Shown here piece after piece: positions 1,737-24,147 of a DNA stretch of 24,586 nucleotides. Position 1 is the first letter of the stretch. The number at the start of each line of letters is the position of its first letter. The translations under genes were made by a program, and so were the position numbers. The notes below the pieces were generated by a model. It saw only the letters and a program-made list of their open reading frames with translations. It made no database searches and had not been told where the DNA came from. This DNA comes from a virus, in IMG/VR virus record IMGVR_UViG_3300007734_000502, positions 1 through 24,586 of that record; one strand, given 5' to 3'.

Positions 1737-2648
1737 ATGACAAAAGTAAATTATGGTTATGCGTGTTTAAATGAAACACTAAAAGCACAAGACATTACTA
1801 CAAACAGAAGCTTAAAAAAAGCTACATTAAGTAAAAAAGGTTTAGAGTATTGTAGCAGTTTAGCAGTTCAAAACATTAGAGACTTAGAAAAGATTTTACA
1901 TTGGAATGTTAAAAACAATCTTTTGTTTTTTAGAATATCATCAAACATCATTCCATGGGGAAATAAATTAAATTGGTTTGAATTTAAAGACTTTGATGAA
2001 ATTAAAGAAATTTTAAAACGTTGTGGGGAATATGCTAAAGAACATAATTTAAGACTCACAATGCATCCTGGACAATATTGTATTCTTACTAGTCCACATC
2101 AACATGTTATTGATAATAGTGTAAGTGATTTACAAATGCATAATGACATTATGGATTTAATGGATTTAAGTGTTACTCCATTCAACAAAATAAACATACA
2201 CATGGGAGCAGCATATGGAGACAAAATTACCACTGCAAAAACATTTGTAAAAAATTTTAAATTACTGTCAAGTCAAATCAAGTCAAGACTGACAATTGAA
2301 AATGATGATAAGGCAGCAATGTATTCAACTAAAGAGTTATATGAACTAATTCATCAAGAAGTAGGTATTCCTATTGTGTTTGATTATCATCACCATAAGT
2401 TTTGTACAGGCAATCAAACAGAAGAAGAAGCATTAAAATTAGCTGTATCAACTTGGGGGGATGTAAAACCTTGTGTACATTATAGTGAATCTAAGTGTAT
2501 AAATGAAGGTTTAAAAGTTAAACCACAAGCTCACAGTGATTATATTTTCAATAAAGTTGAATTGTATGGTTTAGATATTGATGTAATGATGGAATGTAAA
2601 ATGAAAGAAACTGCTGTTTTAAAGTATAAAGAAAAATTTAAAATATGA
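1737..2648 (+). CDS. uvsE: UV damage endonuclease UvsE/UVDE
   Basis: A 303-residue TIM-barrel endonuclease of the UVDE family, which nicks 5' of UV photoproducts to start alternative excision repair. Typical features are in order: NYGYACLN start, RISSNIIPWG (67-75), LTMHPGQ with His110, NIHMGAAYGDK with His155, LTIENDD with Glu188, VFDYHHHKF (215-222), CVHYSES with His248, AHSDY with His266, and MMECKMKE with Glu286. These cover the usual metal-binding His/Glu/Asp set, so the enzyme looks intact and full length. It follows the 1651 terminator, so it likely starts a transcription unit. Its end overlaps the FAD gene start (ATGA). It complements the DenV homologue about 750 bases upstream. Confidence 0.92.
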   Translation: MTKVNYGYACLNETLKAQDITTNRSLKKATLSKKGLEYCSSLAVQNIRDLEKILHWNVKNNLLFFRISSNIIPWGNKLNWFEFKDFDEIKEILKRCGEYAKEHNLRLTMHPGQYCILTSPHQHVIDNSVSDLQMHNDIMDLMDLSVTPFNKINIHMGAAYGDKITTAKTFVKNFKLLSSQIKSRLTIENDDKAAMYSTKELYELIHQEVGIPIVFDYHHHKFCTGNQTEEEALKLAVSTWGDVKPCVHYSESKCINEGLKVKPQAHSDYIFNKVELYGLDIDVMMECKMKETAVLKYKEKFKI

Positions 2649-3187
2649 AAAAATACACTGATAAAATTATAATCATTGGTGCTGGGGTTGCAGGTATTAA
2701 TGCTGCAACAAAATTAGTAGATAATGGATATCCAGGTGAACTAATAACTATTATAGATAAAGGTAAAGATCCATATACTCGTAGTCCTGAGCAAGTTATG
2801 GAAGGTATGCTAGGAGCTGGAGGTTGGTCAGATGGTAAATTAACCTACCATACTGCTATTGGTGGTCAACTATCTAAATATTGTGGTGAGGAAAAAGCTA
2901 TGGAATTATTCGATCAGGTAATAGCTAACTTCAAGCGTTTTCATCCATGTCCTGAAGAAATATTTTGTAGTAATCCTATAGAAGAACCTGAATTTATTAA
3001 ACCATATTTTGGACTTAGACTATTTCCTGTATGGCATATTGGAAGTAATTATCTTTCTCTTATAGCTTCCAAATGGTATCAATATTTATTATCGAAGGGT
3101 GTTAATTTCTTATGGCAACATGAGGTCACCAATATAAATTTTGAAACTAATGAAGTCGAATACAAACCAATTGAAGATAAAAAATAA
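2645..3187 (+). CDS. FAD-dependent oxidoreductase, N-terminal half of a split gene (COG2509-like)
   Basis: This 180-residue piece starts with the FAD-binding Rossmann motif IIIIGAGVAGINAATKL (residues 8-24), followed by an acidic strand end (IDKG). MLGAGGWSDGKLTYHT is typical of uncharacterised COG2509 FAD dehydrogenases. Homologues are normally one chain of about 450-500 residues. Here the frame stops after FETNEVEYKPIEDKK, just where the second FAD-contacting segment should follow. That remainder is encoded separately at 4035-4859, behind an endonuclease cassette. Two fragments could reassemble non-covalently, as reported for phage NrdA split by a homing endonuclease. Alternatively the gene is dead. 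Both halves remain open and motif-intact, which favours function. Substrate unknown. Confidence 0.85.
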   Translation: MKKYTDKIIIIGAGVAGINAATKLVDNGYPGELITIIDKGKDPYTRSPEQVMEGMLGAGGWSDGKLTYHTAIGGQLSKYCGEEKAMELFDQVIANFKRFHPCPEEIFCSNPIEEPEFIKPYFGLRLFPVWHIGSNYLSLIASKWYQYLLSKGVNFLWQHEVTNINFETNEVEYKPIEDKK

Positions 3188-3803
3188 AGCTTTTATATAT
3201 TATTTAGAAAAAGATAATAATGTATTTTATATAGGTAAAACTAAAAACATAAGATCTAGAGAAGCGGATTGGAAACGTGAATATGGAGAGGATATTAAGT
3301 TTTATGTTATAGATGAAGTTAAGATTGAAGAATGGAAACAGTGGGAATGTTATTGGATTGAACAATTTAAACAATGGGGATTTAATTTGATTAATCAAAA
3401 TAAAGGTGGAGGTGGTCCTAATAAACATTCTGATGAGACTATTGAAAAAATTAGATCTAAAAAGATAGGTATAAAACAAAATAGAACTAAAGTAAGGAAA
3501 GATAAAGGATTAAAACATTTACAATCTGGTATAAAAATTGGTCGTCCTGAAGGATTTCATTATAGTGAAGAATTAAAACTTCATTTAAGTAATATGAAAA
3601 AAGGAAAATCAAATTATACCATAGAAGGTAAACGTAGATTAACTAATAAAGAATTATATACTTTTATTAATATAAATACTAATGAAGAATTTGAAGGTAT
3701 TAGATATGATTTCCAAAATCAATATAATTTAACTTATAAAGGAATATATAATTTAGTCACAAATAAAGCAAAAACATATAAAGGATGGAAAATAAAGATG
3801 TAA
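3150..3803 (+). CDS. GIY-YIG homing endonuclease with NUMOD-type DNA-binding tail
   Basis: The nuclease domain (about residues 13-90) begins FIYYLEKDNNVFYIGKTK, the GIY-YIG motif, with an Arg in NIRSREADW. The catalytic Glu is probably in WECYWIEQF, followed by NLINQNKGGGG. Next comes NKHSDETIEKIRSKKIG, like the NUMOD3 repeats of I-TevI-type enzymes. The C-terminus (TNKELYTFININTNEEFEG to YKGWKI) resembles a NUMOD1/IENR1 helix-turn-helix. I chose ATG 3150; a TTG at 3141 in the same frame is possible. The first dozen codons overlap the FAD N-terminal piece in another frame, so the endonuclease seems to borrow its start from target DNA. Such enzymes spread by cutting alleles without the insertion. 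Confidence 0.9.
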   Translation: MKSNTNQLKIKNKAFIYYLEKDNNVFYIGKTKNIRSREADWKREYGEDIKFYVIDEVKIEEWKQWECYWIEQFKQWGFNLINQNKGGGGPNKHSDETIEKIRSKKIGIKQNRTKVRKDKGLKHLQSGIKIGRPEGFHYSEELKLHLSNMKKGKSNYTIEGKRRLTNKELYTFININTNEEFEGIRYDFQNQYNLTYKGIYNLVTNKAKTYKGWKIKM

Positions 3804-4048
3804 AAATAGATAAAGGAAGTTTAGAAAAAGGATATGTTTGGGCTCCATATGTTTGTGTTACTGTTGCTACTCAAATAAATGGAGAAACAGTTTGGTATAA
3901 AAATAAATTTAAGAATTTCTTATTAAAAATTAAGCATTTCTTTATCAAACCAAAATATTTAAAAAGCAAATTTATTTCTAAATATTCTCAAAAAATTATT
4001 AACCCAAATTTTTATAGTACAATTAAAATAACAGATGGAAACAAATAA
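3785..4048 (+). pseudogene. Orphan fragment resembling the C-terminus of a gp23-type major capsid protein
   Basis: An 87-residue frame. LEKGYVWAPYVCV matches LETGAVFAPYIPL of this window's own capsid protein, and KYSQKIINPNFYSTIKI matches its RYAKKMLRPEYYAKIYV near the C-terminus, in the same order. Between them lies a lysine- and aromatic-rich insert (KNKFKNFLLKIKHFFIKPKYLK) absent from the local gp23, so it is not a recent copy of it. The likeliest reading is the 3' part of a divergent capsid gene carried with the endonuclease. It lacks the rest of the capsid fold, so it cannot build a capsomer. It may still be translated: it overlaps the endonuclease end by 19 bases and the next gene by 14. 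An unrelated small protein is possible. Confidence 0.55.
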
Positions 4049-4859
4049 AATAAAATACGACTCTTTAATTTTTGCAGTAGGTAAATCAGGTATTGATTTT
4101 GGTAAACAATTAGCTGAACAATATAATTTAGAAACAGAAGCAAAATCAGTTCAAATAGGTGTTAGATTCGAAGCACCACAAAAATATTTCCAAAAGCTAA
4201 TTGATATATCTTATGATTTCAAATTATATCAAAAACCAAATGAAAATGTTTCATTAAGATCATTTTGTACTAACAATAATGCAGCTTATGTTGCTGTAGA
4301 AGAAACTTATGGAGATATAAGCTATAACGGACACGCAAAGAAAGGTGAAGAATATCGTAATGATATGACTAACTTTGGTATTCTAATGGAAATTAAGGGT
4401 ATTGAAAACCCATTTGAATGGAGTAGAAATGTAGTTAAAGTATGTCAAGCAAATAATACAGGATTATATTACTCACCTAATATGACTCGCAAACCAGGAC
4501 TAACATCAGAAGGTACAACAGTATCAGCTTGGGAAATATCTAAACATTCATTAAATAATGTTAGACATGTTATGGGTGGGTATTTTGAATATATTGAAAA
4601 TTTTATTGATGATATGAATAAAATATTTGAATTTGGTGATGATTGGGGTATGTATATTCCTGAAGTAAAATATTTATCTCCTGAACCATTAGTAAAATAT
4701 ATAGATCTATCATTAATAGACTATCCAAATATTCATTTTGTAGGAGACGCACTTAGTGCAAGAGGAATAACAGTATCAGGTGCGCAAGGAATTTATGTTG
4801 CAGAATCAATACTCCAAAATAAAGAACAAGAGCATCCTGAATTCATAGAAAATTTTTAA
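4035..4859 (+). CDS. FAD-dependent oxidoreductase, C-terminal half of a split gene (COG2509-like)
   Basis: This 274-residue piece continues the protein begun at 2645. NKIKYDSLIFAVGKSG is the second FAD-contact strand of such enzymes. RSFCTNNNAAYVAVEE, SYNGHAKKGEEYRNDMTNFGILMEIK and the C-terminal IHFVGDALSARGITVSGAQGIYVAESIL are typical of the COG2509 family, the last closing the FAD site. It has its own ATG, reached by coupling from the upstream fragment (14-base overlap). The preceding frame reads TDGNK and then stops; deleting four bases of the AAAT-rich run at 4043-4055 would give DGNKIKYD in one frame, hinting at slippage. Whether it is active with the other half cannot be told here. Confidence 0.85.
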   Translation: METNKIKYDSLIFAVGKSGIDFGKQLAEQYNLETEAKSVQIGVRFEAPQKYFQKLIDISYDFKLYQKPNENVSLRSFCTNNNAAYVAVEETYGDISYNGHAKKGEEYRNDMTNFGILMEIKGIENPFEWSRNVVKVCQANNTGLYYSPNMTRKPGLTSEGTTVSAWEISKHSLNNVRHVMGGYFEYIENFIDDMNKIFEFGDDWGMYIPEVKYLSPEPLVKYIDLSLIDYPNIHFVGDALSARGITVSGAQGIYVAESILQNKEQEHPEFIENF

Positions 4860-4870
4860 AAATAAAGGTT

Positions 4871-5164
4871 ATGGACACACTAAGAGATTATCAAGAAAGG
4901 GATTATGAACTAATTTGTGATGAATTTAGTAGACACAATTCTGTTTTATACCAAGGAGCTACTGGATCTGGGAAATCGCTATTAATCCAAAAATGGGTTG
5001 AAGATAACAAAGAAGATAAAATATTACAATTCAGTCGAACTAAATTGAGATCAACTAACGAAATTAAGTTTATGGATGTTAATAAAAAGTTGATTGAAAC
5101 TAAACAAAATATCAAACCTGAAAAGGTAATTGAAATATTAGAAGATTCTGGTTGGAAGGGTTAA
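4871..5164 (+). CDS. Short Walker A protein, possibly a truncated SF2 helicase
   Basis: A 97-residue product. Residues 1-40 (LRDYQERDYELICDEF, then GATGSGKS at 29-36) match the Q-motif-like start and Walker A of superfamily 2 DNA helicases such as T4 UvsW. The DEAD/DEAH box and every later helicase motif are absent. After about residue 52 the sequence is unrelated (LRSTNEIKFMDVNKKL to EDSGWKG). Either a deletion has left a remnant, or this is a small phage protein keeping only the nucleotide-binding loop. The frame is clean and has a proper start and stop, so it may be expressed. A perfect 10-bp hairpin follows immediately. Helicase activity is unlikely. Confidence 0.65.
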   Translation: MDTLRDYQERDYELICDEFSRHNSVLYQGATGSGKSLLIQKWVEDNKEDKILQFSRTKLRSTNEIKFMDVNKKLIETKQNIKPEKVIEILEDSGWKG

Positions 5165-17611: not shown

Positions 17612-19273
17612 ATGGCAACAACAATTCAATCATTACTAGAATCTGCAAACCCTTGGAAATCACTTCAAAGCGATGCAGCTAGATTATCCCAAAAATGGGA
17701 AAAAACAGGCCTTTTAAAAGGTTTGGCAGAGGTCGATAAGAACAATCTATCTCTTATGCTTGAAAATCAAGCAAAACAGTTGGTTGTAGAAAACAACATT
17801 ACACCTGGAGGTGCAGGAGCAGGATCATTCACAGTTGGTCAATCAGAAAACTGGGCTGGTATCGCTTTACCTTTAGTTCGTAAAGTATTTGGTCAAATTA
17901 TGGCTAAAGAATTTGTTTCTGTTCAACCTATGAATTTACCTTCTGGTCTTGTGTTCTTCTTGGATTTTCAATACAACAACACAAAGAATCCATTTACAGC
18001 AGGTCAATCATTGTATGGTACAAGAAATGCTTCAGGTCAATTCCCATTCCAATCAACTGCAACAGCAGGTGGTTTATATGGTGCTGGTCGTTTTGCATAT
18101 TCAACAAACCAATTTAGTTCAAGTGTTTCATCTTCAGTAGGTGGTGTAGCTTCAGCTTCAGCAGCTTGGTCAGAAGTAAATTTTGACTCAACTTACTCAG
18201 CTTCAGCAGCAGCAGGAACTATTAAGAAAGTTACAATTCCTCTTTCATCTTCATTCACAGGATTTGATCCGGATGCAGTAAGAGCTTTTGTAATAACTTC
18301 AGGTTCAACTTATACAGCAGCTGAAAATTTAGCTCAATTTACAACTTATAACTACACTAATGCTACATTAACATTCTTTGTAACTGGTTCAACAATTGTT
18401 CCTGCTACAACATGGGTAGTTTATTGGAATAAAATTACAGCAGATAATAACAGAGGTGACTTTGAAGATTCATCTTCATATGCTTCACCAAACAGTTTAT
18501 CTTCAACTAATATCAGTATTCCTGAAATTAACATTTCAATGCAATCACAAGCCATCGTAGCTAAGACTAAAAAGTTGAAGGCAGTATGGACTCCTGAGTT
18601 TGCACAAGATTTGAATGCATATCAGAACATTGACGCAGAAGCAGAATTAACAAACATTATGTCTGAATATATTTCTATGGAAATTGATTTGGAAATTTTG
18701 GAAATGTTAATTGAAGATGCAGCTGCAGGTACAGAACAATGGTCAGCAATTAATAATACAACTTTAAACGCTGGTGGAACTGATTTCACTCAATCTTTAG
18801 GTTATTACAATAGCCAAGGTCAATGGTTCCAAACATTAGGAACTAAAGTTCAGAAGTTGTCTAACAAAATCCACCAATTGACAATGAGAGGTGGAGCAAA
18901 TTTCATGGTATTCTCTCCAACAATTGGAACTATCATGGAAGCAATGCCTGGCTTTGCAAATAATTCAGGTGGCGACACTGAAAAAATGGAATATGCTTTT
19001 GGAGCACAAAAAGCAGGTTCATTTAACGGCCGCTTTACATGCTACAAAAACCCATATATGACTGAAAATGTTATTTTGTTGGGTTACAGAGGAAAACAAT
19101 TCTTGGAAACAGGAGCTGTATTTGCACCTTATATTCCGTTGATTATGACACCTTTAGTATATGATCCAAACACTTTCACACCAAGAAAAGGTTTGTTAAC
19201 TAGATATGCTAAGAAGATGTTGCGTCCTGAATACTATGCAAAAATCTATGTAAGTGGATTAAATACACTTTAG
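17612..19273 (+). CDS. 23: Major capsid protein (gp23-like)
   Basis: A 553-residue HK97-fold capsid protein, close in size to T4 gp23 (521). The start is ATG 17612 (MATTIQSLLESANPWKSL); a frame open from 17552 adds a Lys-rich stretch overlapping gp22 and is unlikely. The T4-like delta segment ends LMLENQAKQLVVE, so gp21 probably cuts after Glu60, before NNITPGGAGAGSFTVGQSENWAG. VQPMNLPSGLVFFLDFQYN is the family signature. A Ser/Ala-rich insertion at about 150-290 probably makes a surface domain. IDAEAELTNIMSEYISMEIDLEILEMLI and FAPYIPL to RYAKKMLRPEYYAKIYVSGL close the fold. Strong intrinsic terminator follows; high late expression expected. Confidence 0.96.
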   Translation: MATTIQSLLESANPWKSLQSDAARLSQKWEKTGLLKGLAEVDKNNLSLMLENQAKQLVVENNITPGGAGAGSFTVGQSENWAGIALPLVRKVFGQIMAKEFVSVQPMNLPSGLVFFLDFQYNNTKNPFTAGQSLYGTRNASGQFPFQSTATAGGLYGAGRFAYSTNQFSSSVSSSVGGVASASAAWSEVNFDSTYSASAAAGTIKKVTIPLSSSFTGFDPDAVRAFVITSGSTYTAAENLAQFTTYNYTNATLTFFVTGSTIVPATTWVVYWNKITADNNRGDFEDSSSYASPNSLSSTNISIPEINISMQSQAIVAKTKKLKAVWTPEFAQDLNAYQNIDAEAELTNIMSEYISMEIDLEILEMLIEDAAAGTEQWSAINNTTLNAGGTDFTQSLGYYNSQGQWFQTLGTKVQKLSNKIHQLTMRGGANFMVFSPTIGTIMEAMPGFANNSGGDTEKMEYAFGAQKAGSFNGRFTCYKNPYMTENVILLGYRGKQFLETGAVFAPYIPLIMTPLVYDPNTFTPRKGLLTRYAKKMLRPEYYAKIYVSGLNTL

Positions 19274-20064: not shown

Positions 20065-22575
20065 ATGCCATTAAATACAATACCAACTGGAGGAATAGTA
20101 GATGGACAAATTATATTTGCTACTCATTCTCTGGCCATTATCCGCGCTTTAAACGGTGAAACTGCTGCTTATACAATAGTTGCCAGTGGATCTACTTATT
20201 TGTTAAACGCTTTTATAACAGGTAGTTTATTTGGTACTGCTTCATGGGCTTTACATTGTTTAACTGCAAGTTTTGCAGACTATGCTACTAGTGCTTCATG
20301 GGCAAATACGGCCTCTTATACAATATCTGCTAGCTATGCTTCACAATCTCAATTTGCAGTAACTGCTTCAAATGCTAGAACAGCTTCATATTATAATGAA
20401 GTTGATCCAATATTTGTTAATAAATCATCATCGCTAGCAACAACAGGATCAAATCAATTCTCAGGTAGTCAAGGTATAACAGGTTCAGTATCAATTTCAG
20501 GTAGTTTAACAGTTAGATTTTTACCAACAGGTAGTCAATATATAGTAACATATGATTCTGCTTCAGGTCAATTATTTTATACTTCGAGTACTTCAGTAGG
20601 AGGAGCAACGCCTCCAGGTGGAACTAACTTACAAATACAATATAATAGTCAAAGCAATTTTGCAGGAGCAACTGCTTTAAGATATAATCCTGCTACAGGT
20701 TTAACTACAATAGATTCTATACAAGCTACTGGTTCATATAGTGGTTCTTTAACAGGAAGTCTACTAGGTACATCTTCATGGGCTATAAGTGCTTCTGTTG
20801 CAAACACTGCTTTAACATCATCATATGTAGTAACTTCTCAAACAGCAAGTTATTATAACGAAATTGATCCTATTTTTAATGCTAAATCCTCTTCTTTAGC
20901 TACAACAGGATCAAACCAATTCAATGATAATCAAAATATATCCGGATCGGTATTTATAAGTTCAAGCATAACAGTTAAAGGTTTATTAAATCAAACTAGA
21001 CCAAATGTTATATTTTATGATTCTGCTTCAGGTCAGTTTTATTATGCTTCAAGTGCAAGTTCAGGAGGAACAGGTTCATTAACACCTCCAGGTGGAACAA
21101 ATACTCAATTACAATATAATAATAATGGAACATTTGGTGGAGCTACTGCTTTAAGATATAATTCATCTTCAGGATTAACAACAATTGATTTAATCCAATC
21201 AACAGGTTCTATTAGTGGTTCTATAACAGGTTCATTATTAGGTACTTCGAGTTGGGCTTTAAATGCTTTATTATCAAATACTGCCTCTTATGCTTTATTA
21301 TCAAATACAGCATCATTTTATAATGAAATAGATCCTGTTTTTAACGCTAAGTCTTCAAGTTTCGCTACAACAGCTTCTAATAATTTTGGAGGCAATCAAG
21401 TTATAACAGGTAGTTTAATAGTTAGTGGTTCATCAACTATTATATTTAGAAATTTAGTATCACAAAGTAGACAATATATAGTTGTTTATGATACTGCATC
21501 GGGTCAATTATCTTATGTTTTAAGTTCATCTATTGCTTCAAGTGGAAGTGGTGTACCTGCAGGTTCAGATACAATGATTCAGTATAATAATTCTGGAACT
21601 TTTGGTGGAGCTACTGCTTTAAGATATAATCAAGGAACAGGTTTAACAACAGTTGATTTTATCCAAGCAACTGGTTCTATGTCTGGTAGTTTTACTGGAT
21701 CATTTAAAGGAAATTTAGTAGGTACTGCTTCATGGTCTTCAAATTCATTATTTGCATTAACATCTTCTTTAGCATTTCTAGCTCAAACAGCTTCATATTA
21801 TAGTCAAAGTGTTGAAGTTGATTTTATACCATTTGGTAAAGGAGGAGGACAATTAACAAGTAGTGCTGAATTAACATGGAATTCTCTTTTCCCACACTTT
21901 ATAGGAATTAATTCAATCTCATCATCTGGAGTATTAATTTCAAGAAATACAGGTAAATCAGCAGGAATAATTTTAGCAACAAACACAGGTAGTTTAACAG
22001 CATCATTTAGATGGGCCCATTTTATAGATAATGATGATAATTATGCTTTCAGACGTTATGATGATACTGGTAGTTTTATAGATAATACTATATTTTTAGA
22101 AAGATTAACAAATAGAGTTAACTTTCCAGTTTTAGCAGGAACAGGAGTAAGAATGGTAGTTGCAGATGCAACAGGTTCTATATCAACACAAGCAGTTCCA
22201 ACAGGTAGTGCTGCTGTTAATACAGGTTCATTTATGACTACTGGTAGTGTTAGTGGAAACGTTTTAACATTTACTAAAGGAGATGGTTCAACATTCCCTC
22301 TTACAGTATCAACAGGTTCAGGAGGAAGTAGTACAACAAAAGCAGGAACAGCGTCAATAGCTTCTTTTGGAGGAACACCTCTTACAGCATCAGTAACTTT
22401 TGGAACAGCATTCTCAAATACAAATTATTCTATATCTGTTTTAGGACAAAAATCAGATAGTAGATCATGGACAATAGAAAGCCAAGCAACTAGTAATTTC
22501 GTAATAAATTCAAATAGTAATTCTTCATTAACCAACCCAGTATTTTGGATAGCAACACCTTTTAATAATTCATAA
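20065..22575 (+). CDS. Long repetitive tail fibre / appendage protein
   Basis: An 836-residue Ser/Thr/Gly/Ala-rich protein without signal peptide. The N-terminal part (GSLFGTASWALHCLTASFADYATSAS) contains short GTASWA/NTASY heptad-like repeats typical of fibrous phage proteins. Three modules of about 155 residues follow (about 109-577), each with YNE[VI]DPIF, TGSNQF, YDSASGQ, PGGTNxQ[IL]QYN, GATALRYN, and GSLLGTSSWA or a variant of these. The C-terminal 260 residues differ and include the putative tip: FRWAHFIDNDDNYAFRRYDDTG, then a beta-rich end (SVTFGTAFSNTNYSISVLGQ to FWIATPF). Such proteins form trimeric host-contact fibres. Receptor unknown. The stop is directly followed by the next fibre ATG, so the two are likely made together. 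Confidence 0.85.
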   Translation: MPLNTIPTGGIVDGQIIFATHSLAIIRALNGETAAYTIVASGSTYLLNAFITGSLFGTASWALHCLTASFADYATSASWANTASYTISASYASQSQFAVTASNARTASYYNEVDPIFVNKSSSLATTGSNQFSGSQGITGSVSISGSLTVRFLPTGSQYIVTYDSASGQLFYTSSTSVGGATPPGGTNLQIQYNSQSNFAGATALRYNPATGLTTIDSIQATGSYSGSLTGSLLGTSSWAISASVANTALTSSYVVTSQTASYYNEIDPIFNAKSSSLATTGSNQFNDNQNISGSVFISSSITVKGLLNQTRPNVIFYDSASGQFYYASSASSGGTGSLTPPGGTNTQLQYNNNGTFGGATALRYNSSSGLTTIDLIQSTGSISGSITGSLLGTSSWALNALLSNTASYALLSNTASFYNEIDPVFNAKSSSFATTASNNFGGNQVITGSLIVSGSSTIIFRNLVSQSRQYIVVYDTASGQLSYVLSSSIASSGSGVPAGSDTMIQYNNSGTFGGATALRYNQGTGLTTVDFIQATGSMSGSFTGSFKGNLVGTASWSSNSLFALTSSLAFLAQTASYYSQSVEVDFIPFGKGGGQLTSSAELTWNSLFPHFIGINSISSSGVLISRNTGKSAGIILATNTGSLTASFRWAHFIDNDDNYAFRRYDDTGSFIDNTIFLERLTNRVNFPVLAGTGVRMVVADATGSISTQAVPTGSAAVNTGSFMTTGSVSGNVLTFTKGDGSTFPLTVSTGSGGSSTTKAGTASIASFGGTPLTASVTFGTAFSNTNYSISVLGQKSDSRSWTIESQATSNFVINSNSNSSLTNPVFWIATPFNNS
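20390..21794 (+). repeat. Three tandem long modules within the fibre gene
   Basis: Modules start near 20390, 20851 and 21315, each about 460-480 bases, with a partial fourth start near 21795 (ASYYSQS). They are clearly related in protein but diverged in DNA, so the triplication is old. A shortened form of the middle section recurs in the next gene around 22700-22830. Confidence 0.8.
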
Positions 22576-24147
22576 ATGGCAAATATATTTCAAACAACAG
22601 ATGCAATAATCAACAATTTAACAACATCAGGAAGTTTTATAGCTTCAGGCAGTGTTAATATGATATCTTTAGCATCATCTTCTAAATCTAATATACTAGC
22701 ATTTGACTCAGCTTCTGGACAATTATATTATACTTCTACTTCATCTGTAGCAACTCAACCTGGAGGAACAAATACTCAAATACAATTTAATTATAGTGGT
22801 GCTTTTTTAGGAGGTTCTTCCTTAAAATTAAATTCAAATCTATCAGGATTAGAAAACGGAACTTTAGTTACAGCTTCAGGAATATCTAGCCATGCAGAAG
22901 GGATAAAATCATCAGCTACTAATATTGGTAGCCATGCTGAAGGAGGATATTATACTGTAGGATTTGGAACCACATATTTTCCTGGGGGTTTAGCATCTGG
23001 AACTTCTAGCCATGCTGAAGGAGTAGGAACAGAAGCATCAGGTTTGGGTAGCCACGCAGAAGGATGGGCTACAATAGCATCAGGAAGTTATAGCCATGCA
23101 GAAGGAGTAAATACATTAGCCGAAAATGAATATACACATGCTGAAGGTTCAAATACAATAGCAAAAGGAGTTTCTTCACATGCAGAAGGATATTCAACAG
23201 TAACAGAGGCAGATTATAGCCATGCAGAAGGGTATGGTGCAATAGTAGCACCAGGAGCAGAAGGAGCGCATGTAGAAGGGTTAAGCACAATAGCTTCAGG
23301 TTCATATAGTCATGCTGAAGGATCTACTACAGAAGCATCAGGTTTGGGTAGCCATGCAGAAGGAGCAGGAACAATAGCTTCAGGTTCATATAGTCATGCA
23401 GAAGGATATAGAACAGAAGCATCAGGTTTGGGTAGCCACGCAGAAGGAAGAATTGCAATTTCATCAGGTTCTTATAGTCATGCTGAAGGAGCAACAACAA
23501 TAGCTCTTGGAGATTACAGCCACACAGAAGGAGAAGGAACAACAACTTTAGGATATGCAAGCCACGCTGAAGGAGCAACAACAAAAACATCGGAAAGTTA
23601 TAGTCATGCTGAAGGAGAAGGAACAACAACTTTAGGATATGCAAGCCACGCTGAAGGATCAACAACAAAAACATCGGAAAGTTATAGTCATGCTGAAGGA
23701 GAAGGAACAACAACTTTAGGATATGCAAGCCACGCTGAAGGATCAACAACAACAACTTATGGGTCTTCTAGCCATGCTGAAGGATCTGGTACAGAAGCAT
23801 CAGGTTTGGGTAGCCATGCAGAAGGATATAAAACAAAAGCTTATGGTTTGGCTAGTCATGCAGGGGGAGCAAACACGATAGCTTCAGGTTCATATCAAAC
23901 AGTAATAGGCTCTTTTAATACCCATAATGAAACTACTAGTCCATTTATAGTAGGGTTAGGAATAGCAGATAATTCAAGAAAGGATGCTTTTAAAGTAACA
24001 CATAGTTCATCAATAGTAGTAGCAACAGGTTCAGGTTTACCAACATGGGCAGGCACAGAAGGAGAAATTAAACCTTATGTTTCAGCTTCTAAATATTTTC
24101 TTGCTATGTTTATAGGAGGAACTTGGAGATCATCATCATTTATTTAA
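22576..24147 (+). CDS. Fibre/adhesin with YadA-like SHAEG beta-roll
   Basis: A 523-residue protein. Residues 1-35 are a Ser/Thr-rich fibre start (TTSGSFIASGSV). Residues 45-85 repeat the module of the previous gene (FDSASGQLYYTS, PGGTNTQIQFN). Residues about 105-431 hold 23 SHAEG-type repeats at 14-25 residue spacing (20 with exact HAEG, plus HVEG, HTEG and HAGG). This is the pattern of the trimeric left-handed beta-roll of YadA-type adhesin heads. The C-terminus (VIGSFNTHNE, GIADNSRKDAFKV, KYFLAMFIGGTWRSSS) is a conserved-looking cap. In a phage it would be a trimeric tail appendage contacting the cell surface. No membrane anchor as in bacterial YadA, and no signal peptide, which supports a virion role. 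Confidence 0.88.
   Translation: MANIFQTTDAIINNLTTSGSFIASGSVNMISLASSSKSNILAFDSASGQLYYTSTSSVATQPGGTNTQIQFNYSGAFLGGSSLKLNSNLSGLENGTLVTASGISSHAEGIKSSATNIGSHAEGGYYTVGFGTTYFPGGLASGTSSHAEGVGTEASGLGSHAEGWATIASGSYSHAEGVNTLAENEYTHAEGSNTIAKGVSSHAEGYSTVTEADYSHAEGYGAIVAPGAEGAHVEGLSTIASGSYSHAEGSTTEASGLGSHAEGAGTIASGSYSHAEGYRTEASGLGSHAEGRIAISSGSYSHAEGATTIALGDYSHTEGEGTTTLGYASHAEGATTKTSESYSHAEGEGTTTLGYASHAEGSTTKTSESYSHAEGEGTTTLGYASHAEGSTTTTYGSSSHAEGSGTEASGLGSHAEGYKTKAYGLASHAGGANTIASGSYQTVIGSFNTHNETTSPFIVGLGIADNSRKDAFKVTHSSSIVVATGSGLPTWAGTEGEIKPYVSASKYFLAMFIGGTWRSSSFI
22888..23868 (+). repeat. SHAEG-encoding repeat array
   Basis: Twenty-three imperfect units built on AGCCATGCAGAAG-like DNA. One longer unit encoding EASGLGSHAEG occurs four times with nearly identical DNA (near 23031, 23331, 23415 and 23791), suggesting past unequal exchange. 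Confidence 0.9.
23527..23753 (+). repeat. 84-bp near-perfect tandem repeat, about 2.7 copies
   Basis: Copies start at 23527, 23611 and 23695. Copies 1 and 2 differ only at one base (GAGCAAC/GATCAAC); copy 3 diverges after about 58 bases. Each encodes two 14-residue beta-roll turns (28 residues), so gain or loss keeps frame. Confidence 0.92.

Follow-up and report, generated by a model that had tools for sequence, protein, structure and literature searches.

The virus record IMGVR_UViG_3300007734_000502 of IMG/VR (positions 1 to 24,586, the whole stretch analysed here and hereafter called the window) contains four overlapping frames in which a putative flavin adenine dinucleotide (FAD) oxidoreductase gene is interrupted by a homing endonuclease gene. 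Such a locus raises the question of whether the insertion has destroyed the enzyme, is removed from its RNA, or has turned a single-chain enzyme into one made of two chains. Comparisons of sequences and predicted structures make it likely that a mobile, cargo-carrying cassette with a GIY-YIG endonuclease has cut the oxidoreductase gene in two and given rise to a stable two-chain enzyme, the halves of which would assemble into an active form. The locus is organized as follows, labels such as L047 and L079 denoting related loci.

2645..3187, + strand: half A, the N-terminal half (180 amino acids, aa) of the predicted FAD oxidoreductase, from the Rossmann GAGVAG motif to the first hairpin strand
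3150..3803, + strand: H1, a GIY-YIG homing endonuclease (217 aa from the ATG at 3150; Pfam GIY-YIG) that begins inside the 3' end of half A
3785..4048, + strand: passenger open reading frame (ORF) C (87 aa), which begins in the 3' end of H1 and has homologues in L047 and L083-L085
4035..4859, + strand: half B, the C-terminal half (274 aa), with the second hairpin strand and the FAD strand IFAVGKSG, to GDALSARGITVSGAQG
3125..4085, + strand: the mobile cassette together with its co-converted edges, limits approximate (the end of A, H1, C and the first ~50 nucleotides, nt, of B), drawn from identity to L047 and from synonymous divergence (dS)

The overlaps of 38, 19 and 14 nt between successive frames, reported in the first-pass annotation of this DNA, are exact, with ATG codons at 3150, 3785 and 4035; the last of them is that of ORF C with the start of half B. 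An alternative TTG start is possible for H1 at 3141. The start of ORF C (MENK) is an out-of-frame reading of the KGWKIK codons of H1, and the ATG of half A itself overlaps the end of a UvdE-like gene by 4 nt.

Half A matches positions 2-158 of the profile of phrog_12409 (PHROG; dehydrogenase, 422 aa) with an E-value of 5e-6, and half B matches positions 184-418 with an E-value of 1.8e-13. Since these are successive stretches of the same profile, the two halves are consecutive parts of one protein. Half A also scores above the Pfam cut-off for Pyr_redox_2 and aligns to residues 1-170 of unsplit homologues, and half B is up to 84-87% identical to such homologues; no homologue of half A was found in annotated phages at the thresholds used. 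The family motifs that had been noted are kept in both halves, namely GAGVAG in half A, and the FAVGKSG strand and the C-terminal motif GDALSARGITVSGAQG in half B. The closest solved structure to the AlphaFold model of the unsplit L079 enzyme (predicted local distance difference test score, pLDDT, 85) is 3nlc (VP0956), which ranks first by six orders of magnitude in Foldseek (E 1.3e-17) and is also the best sequence-profile match (E 2e-4). We take 3nlc to be a COG2509-type flavoprotein, and this fold match supports the COG2509-like label originally given to the enzyme. The phage protein is a predicted COG2509-like FAD oxidoreductase, for which FAD binding and redox activity are expected from sequence and model. 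3nlc has the same fold, but it is a single chain with ~18% identity; gp012 of Fletchervirus CP30A is a distant, likewise single-chain, phage homologue (~30% identity).

To collect relatives, half B was used in two scans of IMG/VR; H1, ORF C and a distant homologue served as further queries, and bacterial genomes were scanned once. In 128 loci, representing 91 distinct proteins, A and B form one uninterrupted ORF, and the split is therefore not a chance resemblance. About 26 contigs are split at the same residue, six of them holding only the B side within the contig; L024, whose frame break is close to the contig end, was not counted as split. These loci have the structure of genes in pieces, in that an endonuclease ORF separates the two halves, still in their original order, of a gene that relatives carry intact. 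L047 repeats the entire A-H1-C-B chain, with a 94% identical C and a frameshifted H1. Unsplit alleles, the existence of which in related phages had been anticipated, were found even in a phage ~95% identical to a split one: L026 (split) has ~1343 nt in place of ~108 nt of L033 (unsplit), an exchange that takes in 25 nt at the end of A and 80 nt at the start of B. The stop-rich second halves that would have spoken for decay were not encountered, half B being open with a single internal stop (L035) among the ~26 contigs. The split label changes at least 10 times on the A tree and at least 13 times on the B tree, 4 and 7 of these changes being forced by well-supported branches. The nearest unsplit relative of A is often not that of B, and the gap between the halves ranges from 428 to 1513 nt across split alleles. 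The single split locus of the first-pass annotation is thus real, but its description missed the passenger, the reuse of the site, the split alleles free of endonuclease and the position of the break in a hairpin turn.

In the L079 model, the break corresponds to the turn between strands 167-170 and 173-176 of a beta-hairpin. It was correctly placed just before an FAD-contact strand, which is found at 179-182. The junction is the most variable segment of the protein, with a mean column entropy of 1.7-2.3 bits vs 0.1-0.6 bits over most of its length (a second variable stretch covers 331-350). Because the junction lies in this hypervariable segment, no conserved residue is missing there when the halves are compared with the 91 unsplit proteins; only hypervariable loop is lost. 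All split A halves stop at one point, after the first hairpin strand, and split B halves begin with the second strand. The ATG of half B occupies one position in every split allele examined except L006, and its context is A-rich, like that of the other genes of the window.

The GIY-YIG domain of H1 passes the Pfam cut-off narrowly (23.3 bits vs 22.6). H1 lies at the left edge of the gap in the window, L006, L047 (the frameshifted copy), L086, L087, L088, L090 and L091. Behind it comes a passenger that usually begins with MENK, its start overlapping or directly adjoining the end of H1. This passenger is ORF C in the window and L047, an ADP-ribosyltransferase-like ORF in L086, L087 and L090 (weak Pfam 2CompART match) and an acetyltransferase in L088 (Pfam GNAT); those of L006, L091 and L224 are without assigned family, the L224 contig being cut before H1. 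The initial description of the insert as a homing-endonuclease cassette holds for the GIY-YIG gene H1, but the endonuclease is not alone, since a separate small gene (3785-4048) accompanies it. A second GIY-YIG-like type, H2, was assigned by eye from its YIHIR..FYVGKG motif, Pfam giving no match; it is located at the right edge of the gap in L056, L152, L165, L035 and L045, and ends at or next to the start of B.

Stand-alone homologues of ORF C, 61-68% identical, are present in three other large phages (L083, L084 and L085). It has no Pfam or PHROG family and no homologue in annotated phages at the thresholds used, and its AlphaFold model (pLDDT 42) is unusable. Two collinear motifs of ORF C (G.v.APYi... 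and Y.KK..p.YY..I) resemble the C-terminus of the major capsid protein of the window (19094-19273); C ranks first in this comparison among other window frames, with an E-value of 0.05 that is not significant.

The window and L086 differ by a dS of 0.20 in H1 vs 0.98 in A and 0.97 in B, and the window and L047 by 0.04 in C vs 0.79 in A and 1.03 in B. The window matches L047 with 100% identity at 3125-3184 and with 90-100% at 3665-4084, the outer flanks being mostly 60-90% identical; from 97-100% at the cassette edges, identity decays within ~60-120 nt of flanks. By these measures the cassette is far younger than its flanks, which is a signature of homing in which H1 would be the cleaving enzyme. 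The young cassette, its co-converted edges and the patchy distribution on the trees together make up a footprint of mobility.

Several split alleles have lost most or all of their endonuclease. H2 is reduced to a C-terminal remnant of ~50 codons in L175, to a 42-nt tail in L026 and to ~25 nt of tail in L039, L040 and L086, and no endonuclease is recognisable in L178. Both halves are nevertheless open in L175, L026, L039, L040, L178 and L047, where the endonuclease is lost or broken, and the split therefore outlives the endonuclease.

Endonuclease genes were also observed around complete enzyme genes. In L052 (4822-6066) and L070 (4783-5909), endonuclease and passenger ORFs lie 3' of the complete gene and are followed by an orphan C-terminal copy (GDALSARGITVSGA..., ORFs of 44-61 aa), an arrangement that appears to mark a second target site near the 3' end of the enzyme gene, with a duplicated tail. 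GIY-YIG endonucleases are located just upstream of the unsplit gene in L019 (2150-3465), L005, L007, L032 and L064; in L019, the endonuclease is preceded by a truncated copy of the first codons of the enzyme gene (~26 query residues matched). In L237, which belongs to a distant branch (L098 type, 57% identical to L079), half B starts at the same site behind a mosaic endonuclease (L237:53-931) with an H2-like start, an H1-like GIY-YIG catalytic part and a different C-terminal part, suggesting module shuffling. N-terminal motifs of the type ..RMQKLAGI.. and MKKSELQQIIKEEI..L recur on unrelated small proteins of the window (1330, 5758, 12234 and 12813), as well as on passengers in L086, L087, L040 and L070, and are perhaps a shared targeting or cleavage signal.

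Between L026 (split) and L033 (unsplit), the ratio of nonsynonymous to synonymous substitution rates (dN/dS) is 0.03 for half A and 0.12 for half B; for half B of the pair L045 (split) and L032 (unsplit), the ratio is 0.08. The medians of unsplit pairs are 0.076 (A) and 0.22 (B). A comparison of half A between L087 and L073 was discarded, A of L087 being cut by the contig end. The halves evolve like the unsplit enzyme, the split pair falling within the range of unsplit pairs. From this constraint on both halves we draw the strong inference that the insertion has probably produced a two-subunit enzyme.

Five points weigh against this interpretation. The frame of half B in L035 contains an internal stop, which is either real or an assembly error. 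L006 is without the usual ATG of half B, which must start further upstream in this allele. No Shine-Dalgarno site was found before half B, which is normal for the genes of this phage. The dN/dS values are informative only for close pairs such as L026/L033, and those between distant split alleles were set aside because much of their divergence can predate the split. Finally, the exact sequence on the H1 side was not found in any unsplit allele, a scan with TTTGAAACTAATGAADTHGARTAY (the end of A) returning six contigs, all known to be split.

The insertion could instead have been a selfish one that broke the enzyme and left two halves in decay. Free-standing cassettes are able to inactivate genes, and the stop in B of L035 would agree with such decay. 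We regard this explanation as improbable, however, because both halves are open in nearly all split contigs, including those without an endonuclease, because the low dN/dS of both halves in the L026/L033 pair is that of unsplit pairs, and because the new start of B is conserved.

An intron (group I or similar) that is removed from the RNA, leaving the enzyme as one chain, is very unlikely. Homing endonucleases often reside in group I introns, and many small introns of this group occur in fragmented genes of another clade of large phages, the gut jumbo phages with predicted Bacteroides hosts (PMC12363816). In the present case, however, searches of Rfam at E<=1 with the window region and L056, and at gathering score with 15 loci, gave no match; a group I intron was rejected because the insert shows no sign of its catalytic RNA core. 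Coding sequence fills 100% of the gap in the window and 86-100% in all but one of the other alleles measured, and the gaps of the different alleles share no common core. An intron would need neither the stop found in every A nor the new ATG found at one place in nearly every B, and the A-end sequence of the window was found only beside H1.

There is equally little chance that one half alone is functional (B, for example, as a smaller enzyme or regulator) and that the other is kept by linkage. This would fit with halves that are separate polypeptides and recombine independently, but both are constrained, and the FAD site needs the Rossmann motif of A together with the IFAVGKSG and GDALSARG motifs of B, so that neither half is a complete flavoenzyme. 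Moreover, an intact B beside a decayed A was not seen in contigs reaching far enough upstream. An intein is rejected by the frames, A ending in a stop and B being in another frame, and a homing endonuclease gene (HEG) island, a block of >10 kb bracketed by endonucleases, does not agree with gaps of 428-1513 nt.

For the two-chain enzyme, we propose that the COG2509-like gene of Flavobacterium-type T4-like phages was cut at a surface beta-hairpin turn by a GIY-YIG endonuclease gene and its passenger. The halves would be translated separately from one polycistronic message, with termination of A at a stop codon of its own and initiation of H1, C and B at ATGs that overlap the preceding frame, an arrangement described for free-standing endonucleases of T4 (PMC2988022). 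Together, A and B would then rebuild the flavoenzyme of the unsplit alleles, with each new end contributing one hairpin strand to a pairing in trans. The cassette would spread between alleles by homing, and the endonuclease would later decay or disappear, leaving the split, the passengers and both halves.

There are precedents for such a process. Splitting of nrdA by mobE in Aeromonas phage Aeh1 results in an active two-chain enzyme, T4 gene 60/mobA is another endonuclease-split gene, and the halves of the split gene 43 of phage 25 (DNA polymerase 43A/43B) co-purify and are active (PMC2988022). In Aeh1, as in the window, an endonuclease lies inside an enzyme gene with two separate coding regions. 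However, MobE is an HNH enzyme whereas H1 is of the GIY-YIG type, and the Aeh1 insertion is in a functionally critical region (PMC2988022) whereas the present one is in a hypervariable hairpin turn. Unlike Aeh1 nrdA/mobE, the present system has passengers, two endonuclease types and split alleles without endonuclease, and its activity is predicted only. In the case of gene 43 of phages 25 and 44RR, related phages with and without an endonuclease at the split gene are likewise known for a different enzyme; the 44RR spacer is untranslated, whereas here the spacer consists of coding passengers and footprints of endonuclease 3' ends. Vibriophage ICP1 and its relatives carry HEG islands, in which endonucleases with cargo genes stand at boundaries of genetic exchange (PMC10448857). 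Endonucleases travel with cargo in both cases, but these islands are blocks of >10 kb flanked by endonucleases, and the present cassette is ~0.4-1.5 kb long inside one gene.

The hairpin turn is also variable in enzymes that are not split, where the following feature was delimited.

L079 residues 160-178 (L079:3962-4018) and equivalents: swapped hairpin loop, defined by comparison of loops among unsplit proteins

In the 74 unsplit proteins with a delimitable loop, its length is 16-40 codons and 32 loop families can be distinguished. Where flanks are at least 90% identical on both sides, 29 of 44 pairs have loops of <70% identity; loop identity averages 56% over all pairs, and the same loop is also found in diverged backgrounds. 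This pattern indicates that the loop is exchanged by local recombination and that split cassettes behave as one more loop allele. Assembly artefacts could account for some of the loop mosaics, although the pattern recurs in independent contigs. More speculatively, the turn may be a standing exchange site and a small landing platform used by endonucleases and by passengers (ADP-ribosyltransferase-like, acetyltransferase and others) as they move between phages, the enzyme working on in one or two chains, and the loop diversity might come from an arms race with endonucleases cutting within or close to the loop.

With this locus, a flavoenzyme joins the small number of enzymes for which splitting by a homing endonuclease is known. 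The enzyme, the repeatedly used hypervariable site, the cargo inside the split and the series from invaded to endonuclease-free alleles are new here. This natural series comprises unsplit alleles, split alleles with live-looking, broken, remnant or absent endonucleases, and an almost isogenic split/unsplit pair. With it one can test by which route an enzyme comes to consist of two chains and how this state is fixed, and whether an arms race with endonucleases has left the hypervariable, cassette-swapped loop as its scar.

The terminase of the window shares 56% identity with the terminases of immuto-group Flavobacterium phages, and contigs of flavobacterial metagenome-assembled genomes contain relatives of the enzyme; the host is therefore probably a flavobacterium. 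Directly 3' of half B, an ORF of 97 aa (4871-5164) resembles only positions 270-330 of the 986 of phrog_16 (DNA helicase) and is possibly another gene fragment. Further downstream, positions 22576-24147 of the window encode a protein with many GSYSHAEG-type repeats, probably a tail fibre or adhesin, which adjoins a second repetitive protein (20065-22575).

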